Shown: positions 19,730 to 31,900 of the stretch, piece after piece
Position numbering within the stretch: the stretch's first letter is position 1
Layout: each line of letters begins with the position of its first letter
NCBI RefSeq assembly: GCF_900143265.1
Contig: NZ_FRDJ01000002.1
Coordinates: forward strand, 124,001 to 188,000
Reading direction: 5' to 3'
DNA length: 64,000 nucleotides
DNA from: Fervidobacterium gondwanense DSM 13020
GTDB lineage: Bacteria > Thermotogota > Thermotogae > Thermotogales > Fervidobacteriaceae
The notes under the pieces: generated by a model
What the model saw: the letters and a program-made list of their open reading frames with translations, nothing else
Told to the model about the DNA's origin: nothing
Databases searched by the model: none
Made by a program: the position numbers and the translations under genes

Positions 19730-20494
19730 GTGAAATTTATAGCTCTGGACTTAGGTGACGATATTAATATAAAGAAATTGATGCAGGAAAAATCTTCGCA
19801 TGTTGAGTACATAAGATGGGAAGAACCTTTTAAATTCAAGTATGGGGATGGCATGGTATATGTTTATTCATTTGGAGCTGTTGTCGGGTTGAACGTTCCA
19901 ACAAAGCAATTTAACACTTTACTATCTGAGCTCGATGAATATGTGGTTGGTCAAGTTAAACATACTTCTATCGAAACACTTGAAATTATAACGAATAAAG
20001 AAAAAGAGTTAGAAGTTTTTGAAGATAGGTTCTATGTTCCAAAACTCGACGACGGCGTTATCGCAACTGTAGCTTTCGTATTAGCTCAGAGTGTCTCTTT
20101 AGAGCGAGTTGAACAAAAGACAGGTGTTCTCATAGACGAAATAGAAAAATTTCTCTCTGAAAAAGGAAAAGTAGCAAAAGGAAGAAAATCTCTCGGATTA
20201 GCAATGAAGATATTGAAGACTCGACATGAGATACTATCCGACGTTATGATTCTGGATAAACCAGACATTACTTGGGAAAGCGAAGTCTATGATCAAATAT
20301 ATCAGAAGCTCTCCCGTTACTATGAATTATCAAGACGGTACAAAAATGTCACAACCAAACTTGATCACGCTTTTGAAGTTGCGAGTGTATTGCTCGAAAT
20401 TCATAGCGAAAGTAAGGCTAACTTTTTAGAATGGATGATTATTCTCCTTTTTGTTGTAGAAATCGCCATGTCGCTTATAGAAAAACTTTTTTAA
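19730..20494 (+). CDS. RMD1/YagE family (DUF155) protein with C-terminal membrane helix
   Basis: This 254-residue protein has the DUF155 layout: a YVYSFGAVVGLNVP segment near residue 40, a long helical middle (FVLAQSVSLERVEQ, SDVMILDKPDITWES), and a C-terminal membrane helix (WMIILLFVVEIAMSLIEKLF). Homologues include yeast Rmd1 and mitochondrial RMND1, but the bacterial function is unknown. The GTG at 19730 is chosen since AAGAGGTG lies 6 bases upstream. It follows the DUF2194 gene by 12 bases, which suggests a membrane-tethered role linked to envelope glycan synthesis, though this is only context. Confidence 0.8.
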   Translation: MKFIALDLGDDINIKKLMQEKSSHVEYIRWEEPFKFKYGDGMVYVYSFGAVVGLNVPTKQFNTLLSELDEYVVGQVKHTSIETLEIITNKEKELEVFEDRFYVPKLDDGVIATVAFVLAQSVSLERVEQKTGVLIDEIEKFLSEKGKVAKGRKSLGLAMKILKTRHEILSDVMILDKPDITWESEVYDQIYQKLSRYYELSRRYKNVTTKLDHAFEVASVLLEIHSESKANFLEWMIILLFVVEIAMSLIEKLF

Positions 20495-20552
20495 ATTAAC
20501 GCTATTGTAGTATAATTAATTTTGCCAATATCTTCAAAAGGAGGGATAAGGT

Positions 20553-22079
20553 ATGAGAAAGTACGTTGTTTTGCTTTTTTTAGTGTTGAGTCTTTTGGCG
20601 TTAGCGGTTAAGATCACGGTTTTCCACGTTAACGATACTCATGGTCGTGCGTGGTCCTTCACCGACTCAGCAGGAAATGTCATAGGCGGTTTTGCAACAG
20701 TTGCGTCTATTATTGATGCCGAACGCAAAGTAAATCCCAACGTACTCTTCTTACACGCTGGTGATATCAACACAGGCGTTCCAGAATCAGATTTGTTGAA
20801 TGCTTTACCTGATATTTTTGTTCTCAACAGAATGAAGCTTGATGCAGTCGCAGTAGGAAACCACGAGTTTGACAAACCACGCGATGTGCTTTTAAAACAA
20901 ATCTCGTGGGCAAAGTTTCCATTCTTGAGTGCGAATATTTACAAAGGTGGCGAACCACTCTTTACACAATACATAATTAAGAACGTTGGAGGAGTTAGAA
21001 TAGCTATAATTGGCTTTACAACTGAACATACCAAAATTTTGGAAGGTCCAAATTCGGAAGATCTCGAATTCAAAAATGTTGTTGAGGTTGCAAAAAAACT
21101 AATTCCAGAAATTAGAAAACAAGCAGATGTTGTAATTGCTCTCACACACCTCGGAGTTGGACAAGGGTATTCAGATATTTACACAACCGCAGACCAATTG
21201 GCTCAGAATGTCGAAGGTATAGACTTGATAATCGATGGACACAGCCATACAAATATGACAACACCGATGGTTGTTAATGGAGTTCCAATTGTTCAAGCGT
21301 TCGAATGGGCAAAGATACTTGGAAAAGTCGATATGGAAATTGAAAATGGTAAGGTTGTAAAAATAGAGTGGAGTGCTATACCTGTCATCCAGTCAAAAGT
21401 TGTTGGAAAAGACGAAGCAGGTAAGAATATATACCAGGTTGTGACACCTGAAGCACCTTATGTGAAGACCGCTCTTGATTACTTCAAAAAATTAGGTGGC
21501 GCAAAACTTGATACGGTAATCGGCAGAACCGAAATACTCCTGAACGGTGAAAGAGCGGATGTCAGATCAAAGACAACGAACCTCGCAAACTTGATAGCAG
21601 ATTCAATGAAGTGGAAAACAGGTGCAGATGTGGCACTTACAAATGGTGGAGGTATAAGGGCATCGATAAAACCGGGTGAGATAAAGATTCGCGATGTACT
21701 CACAGTGCTGCCATTCGGAAACACCCTTTACGTTCTTGAAATGAAGGGCTCTGACTTAGTTAAGGTTTTTGAATACGCCGCTTCCGTTCCGAACGGTCAG
21801 GGAGCATTCTTACAGGTTGCTGGCGCAACATGGAAAGCAGAAGGCGGAAAACTTACAGAGTTACTCATCGGTGGAAAACCAGTTGACCCAGAAAAGATTT
21901 ACAAAGTTGTCACGAATGACTATATGGCAGCGGGTGGCGACGGATACGCAACTCTCAAGGGTCAAAAAGGATACAATACCTTCTACGTCATGGCTGACGT
22001 TGTTGTAGAATATATACAGAATGTTCTTGGCGGTAAGATAACTACCTACGATGATAAGCCAAGGGTAGAAAGAAAATAA
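20553..22079 (+). CDS. Secreted 5'-nucleotidase / metallophosphoesterase (UshA-like)
   Basis: This 508-residue protein has a signal peptide (residues 1-18). The metallophosphoesterase domain shows FHVNDTHGR, HAGDINTG, VGNHEFD, ALTHLG and DGHSHT, which supply the dinuclear metal ligands. The 5'-nucleotidase C-domain has TNGGGIRASIKPGEI and NDYMAAGGDGYA. It would dephosphorylate extracellular nucleotides for salvage. A TATAAT at 20511-20516 and GGAGGGAT before the ATG indicate its own promoter, and a very strong terminator follows. Confidence 0.92.
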   Translation: MRKYVVLLFLVLSLLALAVKITVFHVNDTHGRAWSFTDSAGNVIGGFATVASIIDAERKVNPNVLFLHAGDINTGVPESDLLNALPDIFVLNRMKLDAVAVGNHEFDKPRDVLLKQISWAKFPFLSANIYKGGEPLFTQYIIKNVGGVRIAIIGFTTEHTKILEGPNSEDLEFKNVVEVAKKLIPEIRKQADVVIALTHLGVGQGYSDIYTTADQLAQNVEGIDLIIDGHSHTNMTTPMVVNGVPIVQAFEWAKILGKVDMEIENGKVVKIEWSAIPVIQSKVVGKDEAGKNIYQVVTPEAPYVKTALDYFKKLGGAKLDTVIGRTEILLNGERADVRSKTTNLANLIADSMKWKTGADVALTNGGGIRASIKPGEIKIRDVLTVLPFGNTLYVLEMKGSDLVKVFEYAASVPNGQGAFLQVAGATWKAEGGKLTELLIGGKPVDPEKIYKVVTNDYMAAGGDGYATLKGQKGYNTFYVMADVVVEYIQNVLGGKITTYDDKPRVERK

Positions 22080-22115
22080 TAACATAACAAAATCTAGCAA
22101 ATTTTAGGATTTTCG

Positions 22116-22151
22116 AAGGCGGGGCAATTTTCAAGCCCCGCCTTATTTTTT
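22116..22151 (+). terminator. Rho-independent terminator of the nucleotidase gene
   Basis: A 10-bp perfect stem (AAGGCGGGGC with GCCCCGCCTT) is followed by ATTTTTT. Confidence 0.92.
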
Positions 22152-22175
22152 CACAGTAGTTAGTAATTGCCGTTC

Positions 22176-22205
22176 TTAACATTTTTTTGTGAAATGTTGT
22201 ATAAT
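22176..22205 (+). promoter_or_regulatory. Promoter of the niaR-pncA operon
   Basis: TTAACA (22176-22181) and TATAAT (22200-22205) are separated by 18 bases, 31 bases before the niaR start. A short inverted pair (CACC ... GGTG) lies in the leader at about 22216-22230 and could be part of a NiaR operator; this is not verified. Confidence 0.6.
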
Positions 22206-22236
22206 AAAGCTGAACACCGAAACAGGGGTGATTAGA

Positions 22237-22752
22237 ATGGAAAGAAAGTATCAGATTTTAGAAGTGCTTAAGAAGAGTAAGACACCCATTAAGGGAAAAG
22301 ATTTGTCGGAGATGTTTAATGTAAGTAGACAAATGATAGTCTCAGACATCGCTGAGTTAAGAGAGGAAGGATACAAAATTGTTTCCACAAGAGATGGATA
22401 TGTCTTTGACCATGGCAATACTGTGAGAAGGGTCATTGCTGTGAAACACAATGTGAGTGATATATATGACGAACTCAAAAAGATTGTAGAAAACGGTGGT
22501 AAGGTTCTCGATGTTATAGTTGAGCATCCAATATACGGAGAATTGACAGGTCGTATAGATGTGGGGACTCTTGATGAAGTTGAGAAATTTGTATCTCTGC
22601 TTGCCTCAACCGGTACTAAACCGTTGTCTGAAATATCAAACGGTATCCACCTACATACAATTGAAGCACCAGACGAAGAGACGATGAATAAAATACTGAA
22701 AGCAATAAGAAGATATCGAATAACAAAAGATAATGAAGAGGCGACAGAATAA
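22237..22752 (+). CDS. niaR: Niacin-responsive transcriptional repressor NiaR
   Basis: This 171-residue regulator has an N-terminal winged helix (KGKDLSEMFNVSRQMIVSDI) and a C-terminal 3H domain. The domain's histidines are seen in VKHNVSDIYDEL, VEHPIYGE and GIHLHTIEA, which bind metal and nicotinate. It represses NAD salvage or transport genes when niacin is available. Here it is followed after 30 bases by a nicotinamidase gene, which fits. The start ATG lies behind AGGGGTGATTAG. Confidence 0.9.
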   Translation: MERKYQILEVLKKSKTPIKGKDLSEMFNVSRQMIVSDIAELREEGYKIVSTRDGYVFDHGNTVRRVIAVKHNVSDIYDELKKIVENGGKVLDVIVEHPIYGELTGRIDVGTLDEVEKFVSLLASTGTKPLSEISNGIHLHTIEAPDEETMNKILKAIRRYRITKDNEEATE

Positions 22753-22782
22753 AAACGTAAGTCTAAACAGGGGGTGGTTCTA

Positions 22783-23307
22783 ATGGAAGCTCTTATAATT
22801 GTTGATTTACAAAACGACTTTGCAAAACCAGGTGGTGCATTATACTTTCAAGGTGCAGAGAATGTCATTTCTCCAATAATAGAATTGGTTAATGATTTCA
22901 AAAAACGGAATCTTCCGATCATTTACACTCGAGATTGGCACGAAGATAACGATTATGAGTTCGACGTATGGGGCGTCCATTGTCTGCACGATACTAAGGG
23001 CAGTGAAATTGTCGATGAATTAAAAGAAGCTTTAGTTGGATACGATAAGGCATACGAAATTAAGAAGAGTAGGTACTCTGCGTTCTATGGAACAAACTTA
23101 GAAAATCTGCTCAAAGAACTCGGAGTAACGAGTGTTCATGTTGGTGGACTGGTTACTCACATATGTGTCCTATTTACGGTTGAGGAGCTTAGAAATAGAG
23201 GAATAGAAACAACTGTCCATACAAAGTGCGTTGATAGTTTTGACAAGGCAATGCACGAATTCGCTTTACGTCAAATGAAGGAAGTGTTACTTGCTAAGTT
23301 GGTATAA
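22783..23307 (+). CDS. pncA: Nicotinamidase, isochorismatase family
   Basis: This 174-residue cysteine hydrolase would convert nicotinamide to nicotinate. The catalytic triad appears as Asp in IVDLQNDF, Lys in EIKKSRYSAF and Cys in VTHICVLFT. The metal site DWHEDND with a following His (GVHCLHD) is typical of nicotinamidases rather than of other isochorismatases. Co-transcription with niaR supports the assignment. ATG 22783 is used because GGGGGTGG lies just upstream. Confidence 0.87.
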   Translation: MEALIIVDLQNDFAKPGGALYFQGAENVISPIIELVNDFKKRNLPIIYTRDWHEDNDYEFDVWGVHCLHDTKGSEIVDELKEALVGYDKAYEIKKSRYSAFYGTNLENLLKELGVTSVHVGGLVTHICVLFTVEELRNRGIETTVHTKCVDSFDKAMHEFALRQMKEVLLAKLV

Positions 23308-23428
23308 GAACATTTTCTTTCCAAATACGAGAACGCAATTGTAATCAATCTTAATAGGATGTTAATTGTACTTTGTCGAAAGTGTGTTAAACTTACTTAG
23401 CATGTGTGAATATCTAACATATTGCACG

Positions 23429-23503
23429 CCACACCTTTCTCCTTGCTGATTGGAAATCCGCCCGAATTTTATCGTAAAGAGAAAAAAGCAAGGTGAGGGG
23501 TGG
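23429..23503 (+). other. Long imperfect stem in the DEAD-box helicase leader
   Basis: The arm at 23429-23446 (ending CTCCTTGC) can pair with 23488-23503 (starting GCAAGGTGAGGGGTGG). The helix has about 15 pairs with one mismatch and one bulge around a 41-base loop. It covers a Shine-Dalgarno-like AGGTGAGGGG, 35 bases upstream of the chosen start. Confidence 0.4.
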
Positions 23504-23537
23504 AGAAAATATCGCGAGGAGAGAGGTAGAAGAACAT

Positions 23538-25160
23538 ATGAACAGTACGACAAGTGTTGAAACAAAACTTAGTTTCAAAAATTTTGGTTTAAGCGATGAA
23601 ACACTCAAGGCTATTGAAGAAAAAGGGTACGTGGAACCAACGGAAATACAGAGGTTAGTCCTCCCAATAGCTTTGGGAACAGATAAGGACATCATTGCGC
23701 AAGCTCAAACTGGTACTGGGAAAACCGCAGCCTTCGGAATTCCAATACTTGAAAGAATTGACTTCAAATCAGGCAAGAGTATCAAGGCTTTGATAGTAAC
23801 ACCAACAAGGGAACTTGCATTGCAGATATACGAAGAGTTGAAAAGTCTTAAAGGAAACCGAAGAATCAGAATAGCCACAGTATATGGTGGGCAGTCGATG
23901 GAAAGGCAGTTAAAGGATCTGGAAAAAGGCGTTGACATAGTTGTTGGTACACCTGGAAGACTGCTTGACCACATTAATAGAAAGACAATGGATCTCTCGA
24001 ATGTCCAATATTTGGTACTTGATGAAGCAGATAGAATGTTAGACATGGGATTTCTTGACGACGTTTTGGAGATTATAAAACAAACGCCAGAGTCTAAAAG
24101 AACGTTCCTTTTCTCGGCAACTATGCCAAAGGAAATAGTTAACATAGCAAGAAAATTCATGAAAGAATACGAACACATCTCAACAGTTGGAGAAGAGCTA
24201 ACCACAGAGAATGCAGAGCAGATTTATTTCGAAGTCGATGAAGCTGATAAATTACCACTTCTTTGCAGAATTATTGATATGAATCCTGGTTTTTACGGTA
24301 TCATCTTCTGTCAAACAAAATCCGAAGTGGACGAACTATCAAAGAAACTTTCTGATCTTGGATACAACGCAGATGGTTTGCATGGAGATTATTCTCAGTA
24401 CCAACGCGAAAGAGTTCTCGACAAGTTTAGAAAGAGGCAATTGAATATTCTTGTGACCACCGATGTTGCCGCTCGTGGAATCGATATAGAAGGTCTTACA
24501 CATGTGATTAACTATTCAGTACCGAGAGACCCGGAATATTATGTACATAGAATAGGAAGAACTGGCAGAGCAGGAAAAAAAGGGTTTGCCATTACATTCG
24601 TTACTAAAGATGAATATTATCACTTTTCAAAAGTCAAGAGATTTGCAAAAGCCAAGATTGTAAAAGACAAAGTACCAATGGTTGAAGAAATCCTTAATAG
24701 ACAGCTTGAAAATATTGTAGAAAGTATAAAATCAATGCCCCATGTATCAAATGAACTATATAAGGATATAGCGCAGAAACTTCTTCAAGAGATGGGACCT
24801 ACGGAAGTTGTTGAAATGCTCCTGCACGCCCTTCTCAAAGAGAGAATAGATGTCGAAAGATACGGAAACATAAAGCCAAAGGATTTCTCGAAGAATGTTA
24901 GCAAAGATTCAACAGTGAGATTGTTTGTTGCTCTTGGAACTTCAAAAGGCCTCGACAAGAAAAAACTCGTTGAGTACATTTCTGAAAAGACGGGAATCGA
25001 ACAAAGGAACATTAACAACGTGCGTATATTTGAAACCTATTCTTTTATAGACGTGAGCGAAATCGATGCGGAAATAATCATGAAGACTTTCAACAAGAGT
25101 TCAAGAAGAGGCAAGAAGCCATCACGGCCGCTTGTGCAAATTGCAAAACCAAAGAATTAA
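23538..25160 (+). CDS. DEAD-box RNA helicase with DbpA-type C-terminal domain
   Basis: This 540-residue protein has all core motifs: the Q-motif near VEPTEIQ, AQTGTGKTAAFG, PTRELALQ, VGTPGRLLD, DEADRMLD, FSATMP, TTDVAARGIDIEG and HRIGRTGRAG. After a helical linker, residues about 455-530 form a DbpA-type RNA-binding domain (VRLFVALGTSKGLDKKKL), placing it with DeaD/CshA helicases that remodel rRNA and structured mRNA. The ATG at 23538 follows GAGAGGT; a GTG at 23493 would add 15 residues not expected from the family. The leader has an unusual long stem. Confidence 0.92.
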   Translation: MNSTTSVETKLSFKNFGLSDETLKAIEEKGYVEPTEIQRLVLPIALGTDKDIIAQAQTGTGKTAAFGIPILERIDFKSGKSIKALIVTPTRELALQIYEELKSLKGNRRIRIATVYGGQSMERQLKDLEKGVDIVVGTPGRLLDHINRKTMDLSNVQYLVLDEADRMLDMGFLDDVLEIIKQTPESKRTFLFSATMPKEIVNIARKFMKEYEHISTVGEELTTENAEQIYFEVDEADKLPLLCRIIDMNPGFYGIIFCQTKSEVDELSKKLSDLGYNADGLHGDYSQYQRERVLDKFRKRQLNILVTTDVAARGIDIEGLTHVINYSVPRDPEYYVHRIGRTGRAGKKGFAITFVTKDEYYHFSKVKRFAKAKIVKDKVPMVEEILNRQLENIVESIKSMPHVSNELYKDIAQKLLQEMGPTEVVEMLLHALLKERIDVERYGNIKPKDFSKNVSKDSTVRLFVALGTSKGLDKKKLVEYISEKTGIEQRNINNVRIFETYSFIDVSEIDAEIIMKTFNKSSRRGKKPSRPLVQIAKPKN

Positions 25161-25188
25161 TCAAGCTTAGTTTAAGATAATAGTGAAA

Positions 25189-25220
25189 AAGGCTCGCAAT
25201 TTGCGAGCCTTTCGTTTTTT
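25189..25220. terminator. Bidirectional terminator between helicase and UPF0173 genes
   Basis: AAGGCTCGCAA pairs with TTGCGAGCCTT and is followed by TCGTTTTTT on the plus strand. The minus-strand exit is TTTTTCAC. Confidence 0.88.
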
Positions 25221-25227
25221 ATCATAT

Positions 25228-25917
25228 TTAGACGCCTTCACAAGAAATACTTTCACCTGGTTTCAAAATAACACATCTCAGTCCAAGTTTTTCTACACCG
25301 TCTTTGAACTTCTCGGCATCAGCATGTATTATATCCCAGGTATTGTAATGTATAGGTACGACAGTCTTAGGTTTGAACATTTCAACAGCGATTAACGCAT
25401 CTTCCACATCCATTACGAAATTACCGCCTATCGGTATGAAAGCGATGTCTACGCCTTTCAATAGTTCCATTTCCTTTGTCAAACCGGTGTCACCAGCATG
25501 GTAAATAGTTTTGCCTTCAGCTTTAATCAAGAATCCGCAGGGATTACCCCCATATATTACCTTATCTCCATCATGAATACCAGAACCGTGGAGTGCTGGT
25601 GTGAGTTTCACTTTCCCAAATTCAAAGTAGTATACCCCTCCAACGTGCATTGGATGCACTTTACACCCTTTGGTTTGGAGATAATTGCAAAGTTCATAGT
25701 TTGATATAACAGTGGAGCTATGCTCCTTACAGATTTCTACAGTATCTCCTATGTGATCAGCATGTCCGTGAGTAACTAATACGTAATCAATCTTTGGAAG
25801 CTCAAATCCCTTTGGAAAAGCAGGATTTCCGGATATGAAAGGGTCTATTATCACGTTGTACTTTTCTTCGATATCGCTTACAAGTACAGCGGCATGTCCC
25901 AAAAATGTAACTTTCAT
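25228..25917 (-). CDS. UPF0173 metal-dependent hydrolase
   Basis: This 229-residue protein is a metallo-beta-lactamase-fold hydrolase. It has [27 protein letters not shown] and VPIHYNTW, supplying the dinuclear metal ligands. Members are common in thermophiles and are close to the UlaG/L-ascorbate lactonase branch, but the substrate is unknown. It is the last gene of the nqr transcript (33 bases after the 149-residue gene) and ends at a bidirectional terminator. Confidence 0.88.
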
Positions 25918-25950
25918 AAATCCCCCTCCTTTAATAGTAGTGAAGAAAAT

Positions 25951-26400
25951 TCATTCGTATAATACTGCCTTAATAATTGCAGGTTCTAATCTAAATCTTG
26001 CACCCTTTCCTTGAAGGAAATGATGCGCCGCAAGCAGATGAATGGACAGTTCACTGTACATTAACTCACTATTGTTGTTCACATTTCTCACAACCGCTAC
26101 GCGCTTTCTAAAAATCCCGTCTTGAAATGGACAAGCTAAAAATCCGCGTGCCTCGTCTACACGTATCTCCCATTTTTCGAACCTAATCGGTTCGCCAAGC
26201 CCTTTCAGACCTTCTTTCATAAGTTTTCTCATCAATTTCGCTACCTCAACAAAATCAAGCCCTAAGAACTGAAATTCTTCTTCATCCGCAGCTATTATAT
26301 CTACGATATTTCTATCATCATCTCCTAAAAATCCATCTGCTGTTATCTTGCCTGGTTTCATATTCTCTTGAGCTCTTATATATTTGGGAGTCATTTTCAT
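25951..26400 (-). CDS. Conserved-looking 149-residue protein of unknown function in the nqr operon
   Basis: I do not recognise this protein. It has no membrane segment or signal peptide. It starts MKMTPKYIRAQENMKPGKIT, has an acidic stretch (DIIAADEEEFQFLG), and ends in a helical region with SIHLLAAHHFLQGKGARFR. Two cysteines or more are not clustered, so no iron-sulfur motif is visible. It starts 15 bases after nqrF behind GGGGGGAT, so it is co-transcribed with the NADH-oxidising subunit and may be an assembly or regulatory factor. That role is inferred from position only. Confidence 0.7.
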   Translation of the reverse strand: MKMTPKYIRAQENMKPGKITADGFLGDDDRNIVDIIAADEEEFQFLGLDFVEVAKLMRKLMKEGLKGLGEPIRFEKWEIRVDEARGFLACPFQDGIFRKRVAVVRNVNNNSELMYSELSIHLLAAHHFLQGKGARFRLEPAIIKAVLYE

Positions 26401-26415
26401 ATGTATCCCCCCTCA

Positions 26416-27525
26416 TCATGCGAATTTGTCGTAATAGACATCTTTGACTCCATGGTTATCAAAAACCTGGACACACGCGTTTATCATTCCGGGACTACCG
26501 CACAAATAACCTTCTTTTGGATTCTCATTTGGTATAACACTCTGCAAATATTTATCAAGAACATTTGTAATAAGTCCTGTTTCTCCGTCCCAATTATCCT
26601 CCGGTAGTGGATCAGAAAGCGCTGGTATGAAGTGAAATTTATCCCATTTCTTTTCAAGTTCTCTGAAAATTTCAACGTAGTACAGATCTCTCTTACTTCG
26701 AGCTCCGAAGAAGTACCAAACATTTCTATCTGTGATTCCCCTCTCCCACATATCGAAGATTATGGATTTTATCGGTGCCATTCCACTTCCACCAGCAACC
26801 ATTATCATATCAGCGTTTGTATCGCGCATGTAAAAATCGCCGAAAGGTCCAACAACCTCTACAATATCTCCTTCTTTCATGTATTTGTGAACGTAAGTGG
26901 TAGCTATACCACCAGGAACTAATCTTATCAACAGCTCAACATGATTCTTATCACTTGGCGAAGAAGAAATGGAATATGCTCTTTGTGTTGATTCTCTTAT
27001 GTTTTCGTAAGGTGGTATAACCAGTTGAACGTATTGACCTGCTTTGAAACTAACTTCTTTAGGCTCGACAAGCCTTATTCTTAATTCCTTTATGTCGTAC
27101 GTAACATCTTTCAAGCTTTCAACAATTCCTTTGAATTTCCTAATATTGAAGAGTTCTTCCGGCAAGTAAATCTTGATATCCTTTTTCAATTTTATTTGAC
27201 ATGCAAGCCTTACGTTAGCATTTATTTCTTCTTTTGACATGTACGGTAATTCGGTGGGCAGATGTGGACCGACATCGGACAGGACTTTAACTTTACATGC
27301 ACCGCAACTACCTCTCCCGCCACAAGCCGAAGGTACGAAAATTCCTTGTGAACTGAGTGTTTGAAGCAACGGAGAACCTCCGTTTACTTTCAAGACCTTT
27401 TTTGAATCATTTATATCTATCTGCACTTCGCCGTAATTATTTACTATGCTATCAACTATGGTGATAATTATTGCAAGGACTGTACTAACCGCTGATACAA
27501 CTAAAGGCGCAATAATCATACTCAT
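26416..27525 (-). CDS. nqrF: NqrF-type NADH dehydrogenase subunit (2Fe-2S, FAD)
   Basis: This 369-residue protein has an N-terminal membrane helix (residues about 2-25) and a plant-type ferredoxin domain with cysteines in SACGGRGSCGACKVKV and RLACQIKL. A ferredoxin-reductase module follows, with FAD motif RAYSISSSPSD and NADH-binding AGGSGMAPIKSIIFDMWERG, ending GYLCGSPGMI. In Na+-NQR this subunit takes a hydride from NADH and passes single electrons to the membrane core. No NqrA, RnfB or RnfC gene accompanies it here. ATG 27525 lies 5 bases after AGGTGA. Confidence 0.92.
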   Translation of the reverse strand: MSMIIAPLVVSAVSTVLAIIITIVDSIVNNYGEVQIDINDSKKVLKVNGGSPLLQTLSSQGIFVPSACGGRGSCGACKVKVLSDVGPHLPTELPYMSKEEINANVRLACQIKLKKDIKIYLPEELFNIRKFKGIVESLKDVTYDIKELRIRLVEPKEVSFKAGQYVQLVIPPYENIRESTQRAYSISSSPSDKNHVELLIRLVPGGIATTYVHKYMKEGDIVEVVGPFGDFYMRDTNADMIMVAGGSGMAPIKSIIFDMWERGITDRNVWYFFGARSKRDLYYVEIFRELEKKWDKFHFIPALSDPLPEDNWDGETGLITNVLDKYLQSVIPNENPKEGYLCGSPGMINACVQVFDNHGVKDVYYDKFA

Positions 27526-27561
27526 ACAAATCACCTGCCCATTTTACAAAATCGCTCCGCT

Positions 27562-28164
27562 TTACTGAACGTTTATCATGCCAGCGAAACCTATGAACGC
27601 CATAGCCATGATTCCGATAGTGATAAGTGTTATACCAACACCCTTTAACGGGGCTGGAACAGGAGCATTGTCTGTTTTCTTCCTAATTGCAGCCAAAAGA
27701 ACTATTGCAAGCCACCAGCCAATTCCGCTGCCTAAACCAAAAAAGACTGACTGGATGAAAGAATAATTGCGCAGTTGCATGAAAAGTGCAACACCAAGGA
27801 TAGCACAGTTAACTGTTATTAATGGTAAGAATATACCAAGGACCATATAAAGTGTTGGTGAAACTCTATCGATTATCATCTCGAGAACCTGAACAACAGC
27901 CGCGATGACGATTATATAAACTATGTATCTAAGATAACCTAAATCAAGTGGTTGAATTATGTACTTCTCTATCAACCAGTTCAGAGCCGTGGTCACGGTC
28001 ATAACAAGCGTAACAGCAACGCCCAGTCCGTTAGAAGACTTGAGGTCTTTTGAAATAGATATAAAAGAACACATCCCTAAGAAGTTTGTTAATAATATAT
28101 TGCTTGTAAGGATAGATGCAAAGAAGAGAATTAATGGGTTTATGTTAGGAATTAAACCTGTCAT
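27562..28164 (-). CDS. nqrE: NqrE/RnfA-type membrane subunit
   Basis: This 200-residue protein has six membrane helices and the NqrDE/RnfAE fold. Cysteines in LGMCSFISIS and ITVNCAILG correspond to the pair that, with two in NqrD, hold the intramembrane iron centre of Na+-NQR and Rnf. It overlaps nqrD by 4 bases. Whether it is closer to NqrE or RnfA needs a phylogeny; I use the Nqr name because of the linked nqrF. Confidence 0.9.
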   Translation of the reverse strand: MTGLIPNINPLILFFASILTSNILLTNFLGMCSFISISKDLKSSNGLGVAVTLVMTVTTALNWLIEKYIIQPLDLGYLRYIVYIIVIAAVVQVLEMIIDRVSPTLYMVLGIFLPLITVNCAILGVALFMQLRNYSFIQSVFFGLGSGIGWWLAIVLLAAIRKKTDNAPVPAPLKGVGITLITIGIMAMAFIGFAGMINVQ

Positions 28165-28814
28165 CTTTTATCACCCCCTACTTGTGCTGGCTGTTGTACG
28201 CTTTGTCTCGATGTCTGAATATCTTTCTTTATCTGTGCACCTCTCACTATCCAAATAAAAGCAGCAAGTACGAAAAATGCACTTGGTGGCATTACCATAA
28301 TTGTCCACTTTGTAAAGGAATCAGGTAGAACTGGAAATCCTAAGATTGTACCAAATCCGAGAAGCTCCCTGAAGAAAGCAACGGTGACAAGCACCAACAT
28401 ATATCCGAGACCGGCTGTGAAACCATCCCAGAACGAGATTAGAGGCTTGTTTCCTTGCGCAAACGCTTCTGCACGTCCCATTATGATGCAGTTGGTAATT
28501 ATCAATCCAACATATGGACCAAGAGCTTTACTAACCTCAGGTACGTACGCCCTCAGTATTATATCAACGACAATCACATAGAATGAGATCACAAGAACCT
28601 GAGTGATCATCCTGACCTTTCGAGGTATGATGTTCCTTATCATTGAGATAGTGAGATTTGACAGGGCGGTAACGAGAGTAACACCTATAGTCATAATAAG
28701 TGTGTTGCGCAGATTGTTTGTGACTGCTAAAGTAGAACAGATTCCTAATATTTGAACAAAAACAGGATTTTCAAGCCAAAAGTTGTTCTTGAAAATCTTC
28801 TTGAAATCTGACAT
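28161..28814 (-). CDS. nqrD: NqrD/RnfE-type membrane subunit
   Basis: This 217-residue protein has six membrane helices. It contains the paired cysteine sites GICSTLAVTNNL and IITNCIIMGRAEAFA, the counterparts of the NqrD iron-centre ligands. A hydrophilic C-terminal tail (about residues 195-217, Gln/Ser-rich) extends beyond the usual end. It lies between nqrC and nqrE with short overlap, as in other nqr and rnf operons. Confidence 0.9.
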   Translation of the reverse strand: MSDFKKIFKNNFWLENPVFVQILGICSTLAVTNNLRNTLIMTIGVTLVTALSNLTISMIRNIIPRKVRMITQVLVISFYVIVVDIILRAYVPEVSKALGPYVGLIITNCIIMGRAEAFAQGNKPLISFWDGFTAGLGYMLVLVTVAFFRELLGFGTILGFPVLPDSFTKWTIMVMPPSAFFVLAAFIWIVRGAQIKKDIQTSRQSVQQPAQVGGDKR

Positions 28815-28815
28815 A

Positions 28816-29424
28816 TCACTTCACCCCCAACAATTCTTTTAAAATGGGGATATAAGTTGCTATGATTTTCTCAATAGATTTTGAAGTCAAAGTTGCACCT
28901 GTTATTGCATCGACTTGACCATCGTCTTTTGTTTCACTCACTTTTGTTGTTGATACGATGATTCTATCATTCACAAGACTTTCGTTTTTAAATTGATCCT
29001 TAAACCAACTTTCTTCGATTCTACCACCAAGTCCCGGTGTTTCACTTTGAGATATGAAATCTATACCTACTATTTTTGAGACGTCTTTATTCACAGCCAA
29101 AACACCGGAGATATTTCCCCAAAGACCACTTCCGTTGAATAAAATAGCATATACTTCGTCACCGTTAACAACAGCGGAAAATAAGGTATACGAACCTACA
29201 TTTTCAACCTTAACTTGCGATTTATATATCTCCAATGCCTCTTCATTCGATTTATAACTTATCCCCATTGCATTCAAAACAGCCCTTACTGTAAACAATT
29301 CTTGATTGATCTTTACCTTTGACGTTGTTAAGTAATTCAAACCAGAAAGTACAAATACAAAAACAAAAGATATAACAAAAGTAAAAATCACGGTATAAAT
29401 TTTACTCTCCCTGTCAAATTTCAT
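28816..29424 (-). CDS. nqrC: NqrC/RnfG-type flavoprotein subunit
   Basis: This 202-residue protein has one N-terminal membrane helix (residues about 12-33) and an extracytoplasmic FMN domain. The Thr for covalent FMN is in DAITGATLTSKSIE, and SQSETPGLGGRIEESWF is the conserved flanking block. At 202 residues it is closer to RnfG length than to the longer proteobacterial NqrC. The FMN domain faces outward, which matters for the neighbouring secreted heme-binding protein. The flavin transferase ApbE is not in this window. Confidence 0.9.
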   Translation of the reverse strand: MKFDRESKIYTVIFTFVISFVFVFVLSGLNYLTTSKVKINQELFTVRAVLNAMGISYKSNEEALEIYKSQVKVENVGSYTLFSAVVNGDEVYAILFNGSGLWGNISGVLAVNKDVSKIVGIDFISQSETPGLGGRIEESWFKDQFKNESLVNDRIIVSTTKVSETKDDGQVDAITGATLTSKSIEKIIATYIPILKELLGVK

Positions 29425-30350
29425 GCTCCCACCTTCTTTGCTTCAGGAACGGATTTTTTCACTTTTTTCTCTTTTATAATTTCATCAAGAAGTGGTGCGA
29501 ATACATTTCCTATTAAGATCGCGAAACTCCATCCCTCAGAGAATAGTGAGAACGTCCTTATAATAACACCGCTTACACCTATTATCATTCCATAAATCCA
29601 CTGCGATTTAACCTTCTTTGGTGCAGTTATTGGCTCTGTTGCCATAAAGACTGTTACAAAAATCAAACTACCAGACATGATAGCAGGTAATGTTGGCAGT
29701 GCCTTGGGCACGTTGAGAATGTCTAAGAAGAACGTTAACAATGCAGCAGCGCCATATGTGGAGAGCATAAGCCTCCAGCTTGCTGTCTTTGTGTAGATTA
29801 AATATACAGCAGCTGCCAGAATCAGAAAGACAGGCGCCTCACCAAAAGAGCCAGCGCGCCAACCCAAGAATAAATCTAAAATATTAACTAGACCGTTCTC
29901 TCTTAATATCTGCAAAGGCGTCGCGGAAGTAATGGAATCAAGACCAAGAATGGAAGGTCTGACCCAATTCGTAGTCATGTAGACTGGAAAGGTTATATAT
30001 ATAAACAACCTTCCAACAATAGCGGGATTAAAAACGTTCCTTCCAAAACCGCCATATACTTCTTTACCAAAAGCCACTCCAAACGCAATTCCAAGCGCTG
30101 CTACCCAGAATGGAACCTTTGGAGGAAGCGAAAGCAAAAACAACATTGCCGTGACAAGAACAGCTTCACTAACAGGTTTGTTTTTGTTCCTTTCAAATGC
30201 GTATTCAACCAAAATGGCAACGCCAAACACAACCACGGCATTAATCAAAACTGTGAAACCGTAAGCAAATACAGAGAACAATAAAATAGGCAATAGAGCA
30301 TACAACATCTTTCTCATCATGGGTTGCTTCTGAAAAAAGCTCTTTGCCAT
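29421..30350 (-). CDS. nqrB: NqrB/RnfD-type membrane subunit
   Basis: This 309-residue protein has about 10 membrane helices and begins MAKSFFQKQPMMRK. The flavinylation site reads DSITSATPLQIL, with Ser replacing the Gly of the usual SGAT motif; the Thr is retained. The length matches RnfD better than proteobacterial NqrB, whose N-terminal extension is missing. It is the first gene of the operon; nqrA, which usually precedes it, is absent. ATG 30350 follows AAAGGGGTGG. It overlaps nqrC by 4 bases. Confidence 0.9.
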   Translation of the reverse strand: MAKSFFQKQPMMRKMLYALLPILLFSVFAYGFTVLINAVVVFGVAILVEYAFERNKNKPVSEAVLVTAMLFLLSLPPKVPFWVAALGIAFGVAFGKEVYGGFGRNVFNPAIVGRLFIYITFPVYMTTNWVRPSILGLDSITSATPLQILRENGLVNILDLFLGWRAGSFGEAPVFLILAAAVYLIYTKTASWRLMLSTYGAAALLTFFLDILNVPKALPTLPAIMSGSLIFVTVFMATEPITAPKKVKSQWIYGMIIGVSGVIIRTFSLFSEGWSFAILIGNVFAPLLDEIIKEKKVKKSVPEAKKVGA

Positions 30351-30412
30351 AGCACCACCCCTTTCTGATTGAAAGTACAATTTATCATCCCACACAATGT
30401 ACAGCATATATA

Positions 30413-30522: not shown

Positions 30523-30551
30523 AAAAAATGGAGTTGCAAGGAGGTGGAATT

Positions 30552-31424
30552 ATGACAAGATTTTCAACAGCAGCAGTGCTATTAGTTGTTATGGTGATGA
30601 CTGTATTTGCCGGACATCTTGACAACATTTTCAACATTTCTAACTTCAGTGGTCAGTACAAAATCATCTCACCTCAAACTCTTGAAAAGACTTCCGGCTG
30701 GGTTTCTGTTGAAGGTGTAATTTACAATCTTGGTAGTTCAGTGTTGAAAAAGCACGTAAAACTCTCAGAAATCGATTCAAAATTGCTGACGAAAGACAAA
30801 ATTGTGGGATTGCTTGGTGTTACGTACTCTGAATTATCCAAATACAACGGTAAGAATGCTCCAGTTATGGTATCTGTGGGCGGTATTATCTATGACTTGA
30901 GCAATTCTAAATCATGGAGTGGTGGAAACCACAAGAATCAACATACAGCTGGTCAAGATTTGACATATGATATTTTAAAACTCTCACCACACGGGATAAG
31001 CAAAATCAAATCCTTCCCATCGTATGGTGTTCTTGTCTTTACGCCAGATGAGATGTTAAAATTCGATGGAAAAAACCAGAAAAAGATATACGTTTCCGTG
31101 TACGGAATAGTCTACGATGCAACCTATTCAAGAAAATTCTCAGGTGGTGAGCATTACGGACATGATATGGGTGTTGACCTAACAAATGAAATACTCTCAT
31201 TGCAAGGTCACGTTAACTTGCTGAGCAAATTGTATGCAATAGGATTGTACGTATTTGATGAAAAAAGCATTGCGAAATTCGACGGCAAGAACAACAAACC
31301 GTTTGTAATTGCCGATGATAAAGTTTACGATATCTCCAAAAATTCTGATGGCGTGAAAGCCGGCTCTATGCTTACAGGTACACCTCGAAAAGAATGGTTA
31401 GTCGTAGGATATGTATTCAAATAA
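30552..31424 (+). CDS. Secreted protein with four cytochrome b5-like repeats
   Basis: This 290-residue protein has a signal peptide (residues 1-20, ending VFA). It then has four repeats of a small heme/steroid-binding (cytochrome b5-like) module: about 40-90, 91-165, 163-236 and 235-290. Each has a VSV.G.IYDL-like strand. Repeat 2 keeps WSGGNHKNQHTAGQDLT with SPHG, and repeat 3 keeps FSGGEHYGHDMGVDLT with QGH, so both have candidate axial histidines (H127/H131/H147; H201/H204/H220). Repeats 1 and 4 have lost them. It probably binds one or two hemes outside the membrane. The start ATG follows GGAGGTGG. Confidence 0.8.
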   Translation: MTRFSTAAVLLVVMVMTVFAGHLDNIFNISNFSGQYKIISPQTLEKTSGWVSVEGVIYNLGSSVLKKHVKLSEIDSKLLTKDKIVGLLGVTYSELSKYNGKNAPVMVSVGGIIYDLSNSKSWSGGNHKNQHTAGQDLTYDILKLSPHGISKIKSFPSYGVLVFTPDEMLKFDGKNQKKIYVSVYGIVYDATYSRKFSGGEHYGHDMGVDLTNEILSLQGHVNLLSKLYAIGLYVFDEKSIAKFDGKNNKPFVIADDKVYDISKNSDGVKAGSMLTGTPRKEWLVVGYVFK

Positions 31425-31455: not shown

Positions 31456-31830
31456 ATGCTTTTTCGCTACCTTGGAATAACCAGTGCTATTCTACTATTT
31501 TTTCAACTATCATTGTTCTTGTTCAGAAGATTGTACAAGTACCTTCCAAAAAAACCAAAGGTGTTTATACCATTGCTGAAATTTCTTAAGAATGCCCATA
31601 CTTATACTGGGATAGCTCTTGTTGTAATAGGATTCATTCACGGAATGCTGATACTTGGAAGAATTCAGCTTCATACAGGATGGATACTCTGGTTTGGTGC
31701 ACTAATTATGTTTATCAGTTTCCTTTTCAAGAATAGAGTAGGCAAGAAATGGATAGTGATTCACAGAGCAATGGGGTTTGTCCTTTTGATGCTCTTAGCT
31801 ATTCATTACTTCTTCCCATGGATTCTGTGA
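31456..31830 (+). CDS. Four-helix membrane protein with two His-X13-His pairs, candidate di-heme cytochrome b
   Basis: This 124-residue protein has four predicted membrane helices (about 4-25, 47-67, 74-92, 103-122). H48 and H62 lie in helix 2, and H103 and H117 in helix 4, each pair separated by 13 residues. This is the classic spacing that places two bis-histidine b hemes on opposite sides of a membrane in cytochrome b, formate-dehydrogenase-type and ferric-reductase-type proteins. A fifth His (H73) is at the helix 3 edge. It follows the cytochrome b5-like gene by 31 bases and is presumably its membrane partner. Heme content is inferred. Confidence 0.72.
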   Translation: MLFRYLGITSAILLFFQLSLFLFRRLYKYLPKKPKVFIPLLKFLKNAHTYTGIALVVIGFIHGMLILGRIQLHTGWILWFGALIMFISFLFKNRVGKKWIVIHRAMGFVLLMLLAIHYFFPWIL

Positions 31831-31850
31831 CTAAGAAGACTGGTAAAATG

Positions 31851-31900
31851 GCCTCCCTGTTCTTGATCCGGTGTGGGTTCAGGGAGGCTTTTTGATTTTT
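31851..31900 (+). terminator. Intrinsic terminator of the cytochrome gene pair
   Basis: GCCTCCCTG pairs with CAGGGAGGC across a 20-nt loop and is followed by TTTTTGATTTTT. Confidence 0.85.

Follow-up and report, generated by a model that had tools for sequence, protein, structure and literature searches.

In the genome of Fervidobacterium gondwanense DSM 13020 a small gene encodes a four-helix membrane protein in which four histidines are arranged in two identically spaced pairs, and this raises the question of whether so short a polypeptide could bind two hemes and carry electrons across the membrane and, if so, with which partner. The gene lies within the 64,000-nucleotide stretch that we analysed (hereafter, the window) and we named it DH. 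It occupies positions 31456 to 31830 of the + strand, with an ATG start, 124 codons for amino acids and a stop, and, on the basis of its ORF and translation, of an AlphaFold2 model and of its invariant histidines, we annotated the product as a predicted di-heme b cytochrome. The translation places histidines at positions 48, 62, 73, 103 and 117, four of which form the pairs H48-x13-H62 and H103-x13-H117, each enclosing 13 residues, exactly as an earlier note on this DNA had read them in the 124-residue ORF. When the residues of DH were shuffled, two disjoint H-x13-H pairs were obtained in 616 of 200,000 cases (0.3%); thus, the pattern is unlikely, although not impossible, to arise from the composition alone and, taken by itself, is suggestive.

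Homologues of DH were found by protein search in 23 of 61 genomes, including that of the window, and by profile search the family was found in 43 of the 103 genomes available for the phylum. To these we could add one Bacillota sequence, from Acetoanaerobium, which is the only record of DH outside Thermotogota known to us. The earlier note had indicated an alignment of homologues as a check of its reading, with poor conservation of the four histidines as the outcome that would refute it. We therefore aligned 25 diverse members of 120–145 aa, including the window protein, to which the others are 30–68% identical, and the Bacillota sequence: all four histidines and both 13-residue spacings are invariant in 25/25 members. 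Only six columns of this alignment are invariant, namely H48, G52, H62, G75, H103 and H117. At the level of the sequence, this conservation of both residue and spacing is the decisive evidence for the His-pair observation. Moreover, dN/dS values of ~0.10–0.25 between close homologues indicate that these pairs of genes are under purifying selection. The fifth histidine is part of the motif H73-T74-G75 (31672–31680, + strand), placed in the extracytoplasmic loop connecting helices 2 and 3, beside the predicted outer heme site; G75 never changes, and position 73 is His in 20 members, Tyr in 4 and Gly in 1, a variability that suggests that H73 is not needed. H73 is absent from the DH of two closely related genomes, G005 (L031) and G001 (L032).

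Another check proposed in the earlier note, a structure prediction, gave a confident four-helix bundle (AlphaFold2 from a 21-sequence alignment, pLDDT 92.3), with helices at residues 2–28, 37–67, 74–90 and 98–119; helix 2 carries one histidine pair and helix 4 the second, as that note had stated and as in cytochrome b. As far as the alignment and the model reach, neither of the two outcomes that the note had named as refuting its reading occurred. A Foldseek search with this model returned nothing significant. In a second look by VIA, the model matched cytochrome b6 (Z 12.1), the designed diheme protein 4D2 (Z 11.7–11.9) and superoxide oxidase 5oc0 (Z 10.2), and bc1 cytochrome b, SpNOX, STEAP and b561 were also among the high-ranking folds, mixed with unrelated helical bundles; since a Z of ~12 can be reached by helical bundles through their arrangement alone, we use the fold match as supporting evidence only. 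The last residue of the model aligns to residue 204 of the chicken bc1 chain, or 203 of the ovine one, and, counting back without gaps from these range ends, H103 and H117 would coincide with the known heme ligands on helix D of bc1 cytochrome b. When the family profile was compared with the PDB sequences, no match was found at E ≤ 10. The orientation of the bundle in the membrane is suggested by the distribution of charges. In fact, the mean net charge over 27 DH homologues is +7.7 in loop 1-2 and +4.0 in loop 3-4, and ~0 in the other segments, which by the positive-inside rule suggests an N-out/C-out topology. In such a topology H48 (helix 2, codon 31597–31599) and H103 (helix 4, codon 31762–31764) would face the cytoplasm as the predicted ligands of one heme, and H62 (helix 2, codon 31639–31641) and H117 (helix 4, codon 31804–31806), all on the + strand, would be the predicted ligands of a second one towards the outside, on the same side as the exported b5 protein described below.

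The gene immediately upstream of DH, of which the earlier note made no mention, is located at 30528–31424 on the + strand and ends 31 bp before it. It encodes a secreted cytochrome-b5M repeat protein, listed as 298 aa long with a signal-peptide-like N-terminus, although an alternative start is possible at a second ATG at 30552. The protein matches the Pfam family Cyt-b5 at 1.7e-20, with 73.2 bits against a cut-off of 23.7; the closest solved structures by sequence are the prokaryotic cytb5M 6nzx (7e-13) and 6vz6 (2e-8), and the same two structures are the best Foldseek matches (2e-7, TMt 0.88) of its AlphaFold2 model (pLDDT 88.9). Two domains could be delimited on the + strand, both by a PF00173 match: domain A, the best conserved also in the alignment, at 30822–30992 (G000:C2:154822-154992), and domain B at 31041–31244 (G000:C2:155041-155244). 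Domain A reads W-S-G-G-N-H ... H-T-A-G-Q-D-L-T ... S-P-H and retains the b5M motif W-x-G-G-x-H ... H-x-A-G-x-D-L-T ... P-H. By score, motif and fold the partner gene is of the Cyt-b5/b5M type, and the binding of heme is predicted for its product. It belongs to the family of the prokaryotic cytb5M of known structure (6nzx, 6vz6), from which it differs in having several domains, in being exported and in being encoded beside DH. On the other side of DH, a GC-rich hairpin followed by T5 (31850–31893, + strand; RNA fold -27.8 kcal/mol, z -2.9) is the likely terminator of the two genes. A strict consensus terminator scan did not list this hairpin, probably because of its long loop; its position 3' of DH, together with the T-run, is consistent with a b5-DH operon.

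The association of the two genes is not confined to the window. A b5 gene adjoins an intact DH on the same strand in 23 loci, a number that includes the window and L001; either gene may come first, and the two often overlap by a few bases. Cyt-b5 was found in 30 of the 43 genomes with DH vs 6 of the 60 without it (Fisher p = 3e-10, with kinship ignored). The two genes are apart in the f11 genomes of genus g31. In one genus (L041, L094–L098) the DH-b5 pair lies downstream of an apparent betaine/choline-type ABC transporter operon. In G004 (L047), G036 (L048) and G030 (L043/L068), DH is broken by frameshifts, stops or a deletion, and the neighbouring b5 gene is intact. Outside the phylum, Acetoanaerobium noterae has a gene for a lipoprotein with a Cyt-b5 (b5M) domain and, 10 bp later, the DH homologue. 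Other b5M proteins, encoded on plasmids of Peptoclostridium, Alkalihalophilus, Lactobacillus and Enterococcus (L108–L111), are stand-alone, with no annotated DH-like neighbour.

The partner of DH can also be a different one. DOMON, another extracytoplasmic domain that often binds a b heme, was detected in only 2 of the 103 phylum genomes, in both of them immediately downstream of DH, and in neither of these genomes was a Cyt-b5 domain detected; at the two loci (L081 and L084, from two genera of another family), the gene after DH encodes a secreted protein of ~180 residues in which DOMON scores above the cut-off. The swap of one extracytoplasmic b-heme domain for another beside the same membrane protein would imply that DH gives electrons to, or takes them from, a heme outside the membrane, and we regard this b5M/DOMON exchange as the strongest evidence for such an electron transfer.

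Other neighbours of DH were also considered. In G101 (L080) and G102 (L086) DH overlaps or abuts the 3' end of a methyl-accepting chemotaxis protein gene, which suggests a possible link with redox sensing. In the window, an nqrB-C-D-E-F cluster, assigned by Pfam/NCBIfam, runs divergently on the - strand (26416–30407), 120 bp upstream of the b5M gene, and neither NqrA nor RnfC was seen beside it within the window. We rejected this cluster as the electron donor of DH, and did not count it in the module, since we saw it linked to DH in this genus only and the linkage is dispensable elsewhere. Directly after nqrF, at 25951–26400 (- strand), lies a gene for a protein of 149 aa, conserved at 69–90% identity in four related genomes and with no Pfam match. 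In the closely related G005 (L031) and G001 (L032) DH is found beside nqr, with no b5 gene at the locus and neither Cyt-b5 nor DOMON detected anywhere in the genome. Such cases, like the separate genes of genus g31 and the broken copies of DH, count against the two-gene module.

As for the family to which DH could be assigned, the window protein belongs to no Pfam or NCBIfam family. It gave no match at E ≤ 1 to DUF4405 (PF14358), for which the best of its relatives among those listed reached 23.3 bits, with a cut-off of 26.7. Likewise, it had no match to the prokaryotic cytochrome b561 family (PF01292; cut-off 30.1 bits, best listed relative 22.0) or to the ferric reductase-like family (PF01794; cut-off 28 bits, relatives ≤16.1 among those listed, best E over all DH members 5.5e-4). 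For DUF4079 (PF13301; cut-off 31.4 bits), the Bacillota homologue only gave a match, of 21.8 bits and nearly full length. By hhalign against one DUF4405 protein and a small DUF4405 set, only the His-bearing helix was aligned, with no significance; the profile used was poor (six short sequences), and this outcome is no evidence against kinship. We consider that DH works like DUF4405, b561, ferric reductase and DUF4079 proteins, and we file it as a member of none of them.

The comparison with known systems is nevertheless informative. A member of DUF4405 binds heme B, and the family has been proposed to act as a transmembrane electron carrier (PMC11334425). As in DH, where they are present in 25/25 members, four central histidines are conserved, and a full-length example (L103, in G024) has two H-x13-H pairs. 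By contrast, DUF4405 proteins are described with six helices (PMC11334425), instead of the four of the DH model, and their neighbours are apbE/flavinylation genes, whereas those of DH encode b5M or DOMON partners. In Arabidopsis, the CYBDOM protein HYP1, for which a chain of three b hemes has been proposed, carries electrons across the membrane and reduces external Fe(III) (PMC10784544). CYBDOM/b561 proteins share with the DH module a transmembrane two-heme bundle serving an extracytoplasmic b-heme domain, which in their case is DOMON; however, they are single polypeptides with five b561 helices and ascorbate as donor, while in the DH module the helices are four, the genes are separate and the usual partner is b5M. 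Of the traits that describe CYBDOM, we found a four-His membrane protein whose gene accompanies that of an exported b-heme-type domain (DOMON at 2 loci, b5M at 23 with an intact DH), and found neither a fused polypeptide nor a b561 match. Cytochrome b6 and the N-terminal half of cytochrome b also have four helices, with His pairs in the second and in the fourth and 13–14 residues between them, but they show no sequence match with DH, which is about half their size and has no Rieske/quinone context.

Small two-heme bundles are also known. E. coli superoxide oxidase CybB (5oc0, of the PF01292 family, to which DH relatives have weak similarity) is one of them, with a four-helix plan similar to that of DH, although it has 174 residues and is linked to quinone. 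Designed four-helix diheme bundles of ~100 residues exist as well, namely the soluble 4D2 (7ah0, ~104 residues) and the membrane protein CytbX (PMC10120048); unlike DH, they are artificial, have no homology to it, carry symmetric ligands on alternating helices and hold their hemes closer. With superoxide oxidase at 174 residues and designed bundles at ~104, the statement of the earlier note that DH is far smaller than known di-heme b cytochromes was overstated.

Taken together, these data make it likely, in our judgement, that DH represents a minimal b cytochrome, with four helices and two hemes, and forms the membrane half of a two-gene electron-transfer module, comparable to a split CYBDOM. 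Helices 2 and 4 would clamp two b hemes by bis-His ligation, with H48-H103 on the cytoplasmic side and H62-H117 on the outer side; we infer both the occupancy by heme and this pairing of the histidines. Electrons from a cytoplasmic carrier would cross the two hemes and reach the exported b5M repeat protein of the same operon, or, in two relatives, a DOMON domain that would receive them in place of b5M. The exported heme domains could then pass the electrons to an extracellular acceptor, e.g., Fe(III), S0 or a metal chelate. The direction of this flow, the donor, the acceptor and the scavenging of heme are also features of the module that we infer. No donor-binding domain or quinone site is evident in DH; an acidic donor, such as a ferredoxin or a flavodoxin, would be a good match for its strongly basic loops on the cytoplasmic side. 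Thus, the minimal transmembrane electron wire imagined in the earlier note is partly supported. It gains linked and interchangeable extracytoplasmic heme-domain partners, but it is probably not a stand-alone protein: DH probably carries electrons through the membrane by means of two hemes and in concert with an exported heme protein. The two b hemes of the same note agree with the x13 pairs that helices 2 and 4 carry in a cytochrome b-like bundle, and their binding is predicted in a host without recognisable heme synthesis.

This absence of heme synthesis is the point at which the heme reading of DH is weakest. HemB and HemC are absent from the genome of the window, which is 99% complete, and from 99 of the 103 phylum genomes, the same four having both; ferrochelatase was found in 0/103, and all the matches to AhbD in the phylum were below the curated family cut-off, most of them being partial radical-SAM matches. 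The Acetoanaerobium record contains HemB, and neither ferrochelatase nor AhbD was found in it. In G046 (C56, ~20000–27500; L072, L077) a tetrapyrrole cluster encodes HemB, HemC and two radical SAM proteins resembling AhbD; it is one of the rare candidates for the synthesis of heme or of a siroheme-type compound, with no DH match listed there. A paper on T. maritima reports that neither cytochromes nor quinones are found in such heterotrophs (PMC9431562). The hosts would thus have to import heme, or DH would use a cofactor other than heme.

The first of these possibilities opens the way to a different function, in which the secreted b5M or DOMON protein would capture environmental heme and DH would relay it through its His pairs across or within the membrane. 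Hosts lacking any recognised heme route and a partner that is an exported protein of heme-binding type would fit such a role in heme acquisition or handling. Nevertheless, we consider it unlikely, since no ATPase or permease is consistently linked to DH, its fold and its spacing of 13 residues match sites in which bis-His ligation fixes the heme for electron transfer, and the DH module itself may be the sole consumer of heme. An opposite direction of flow could also be envisaged, as in E. coli superoxide oxidase, with DH taking electrons from extracytoplasmic superoxide or another reductant into the cell. These anaerobes do meet oxygen, and the 174-residue superoxide oxidase 5oc0 is among the fold matches of DH. 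Superoxide oxidase uses ubiquinone. This requirement is at odds with organisms reported to be without quinones (PMC9431562), and the enzyme has no equivalent of the multi-domain exported partner, making inward flow improbable.

The lack of heme synthesis could instead mean that the histidines of DH serve as ligands to metal ions (Fe, Cu, Zn) or to a cofactor other than heme, with the b5 domains acting as binders of lipid or steroid type. MAPR-type b5-like domains are indeed linked to non-redox roles. On the other hand, two exactly spaced bis-His pairs on helices 2 and 4 of a bundle with heme-type folds, the replacement of the partner by DOMON, which itself often holds a b heme, and the binding of heme B by DUF4405 (PMC11334425) leave little probability to this explanation. 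Finally, a chance arrangement of histidines in an ordinary small membrane protein, for which a shuffle rate of 0.3% would not be negligible on a genome-wide scale, has practically no probability left, being already refuted by the conservation, in 25/25 members from two phyla, of both the residues and their spacing.

We return, thus, to a di-heme carrier acting with an exported heme protein. In its full extent, the proposal is that Thermotogota carry a two-gene heme wire, made of DH and b5M or DOMON, which would use scavenged heme to deliver electrons to extracellular acceptors and would amount both to a prokaryotic CYBDOM in two pieces and to a minimal natural counterpart of the designed diheme proteins; we advance it tentatively, giving it slightly less than an even chance. 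If this were true, two small proteins would give thermophilic anaerobes thought to be cytochrome-free (PMC9431562) a conserved way out for electrons, and the heme would have to come from outside. Few natural membrane cytochromes with two hemes would be as small as DH, whose size approaches that of the designed bundles, and DH would offer a simple model of transmembrane electron flow; the swap of b5M for DOMON would illustrate how fused proteins of the CYBDOM type could be assembled from parts. For the physiology of these organisms, the DH module is a concrete candidate for an electron route to Fe(III) or sulfur outside the membrane.
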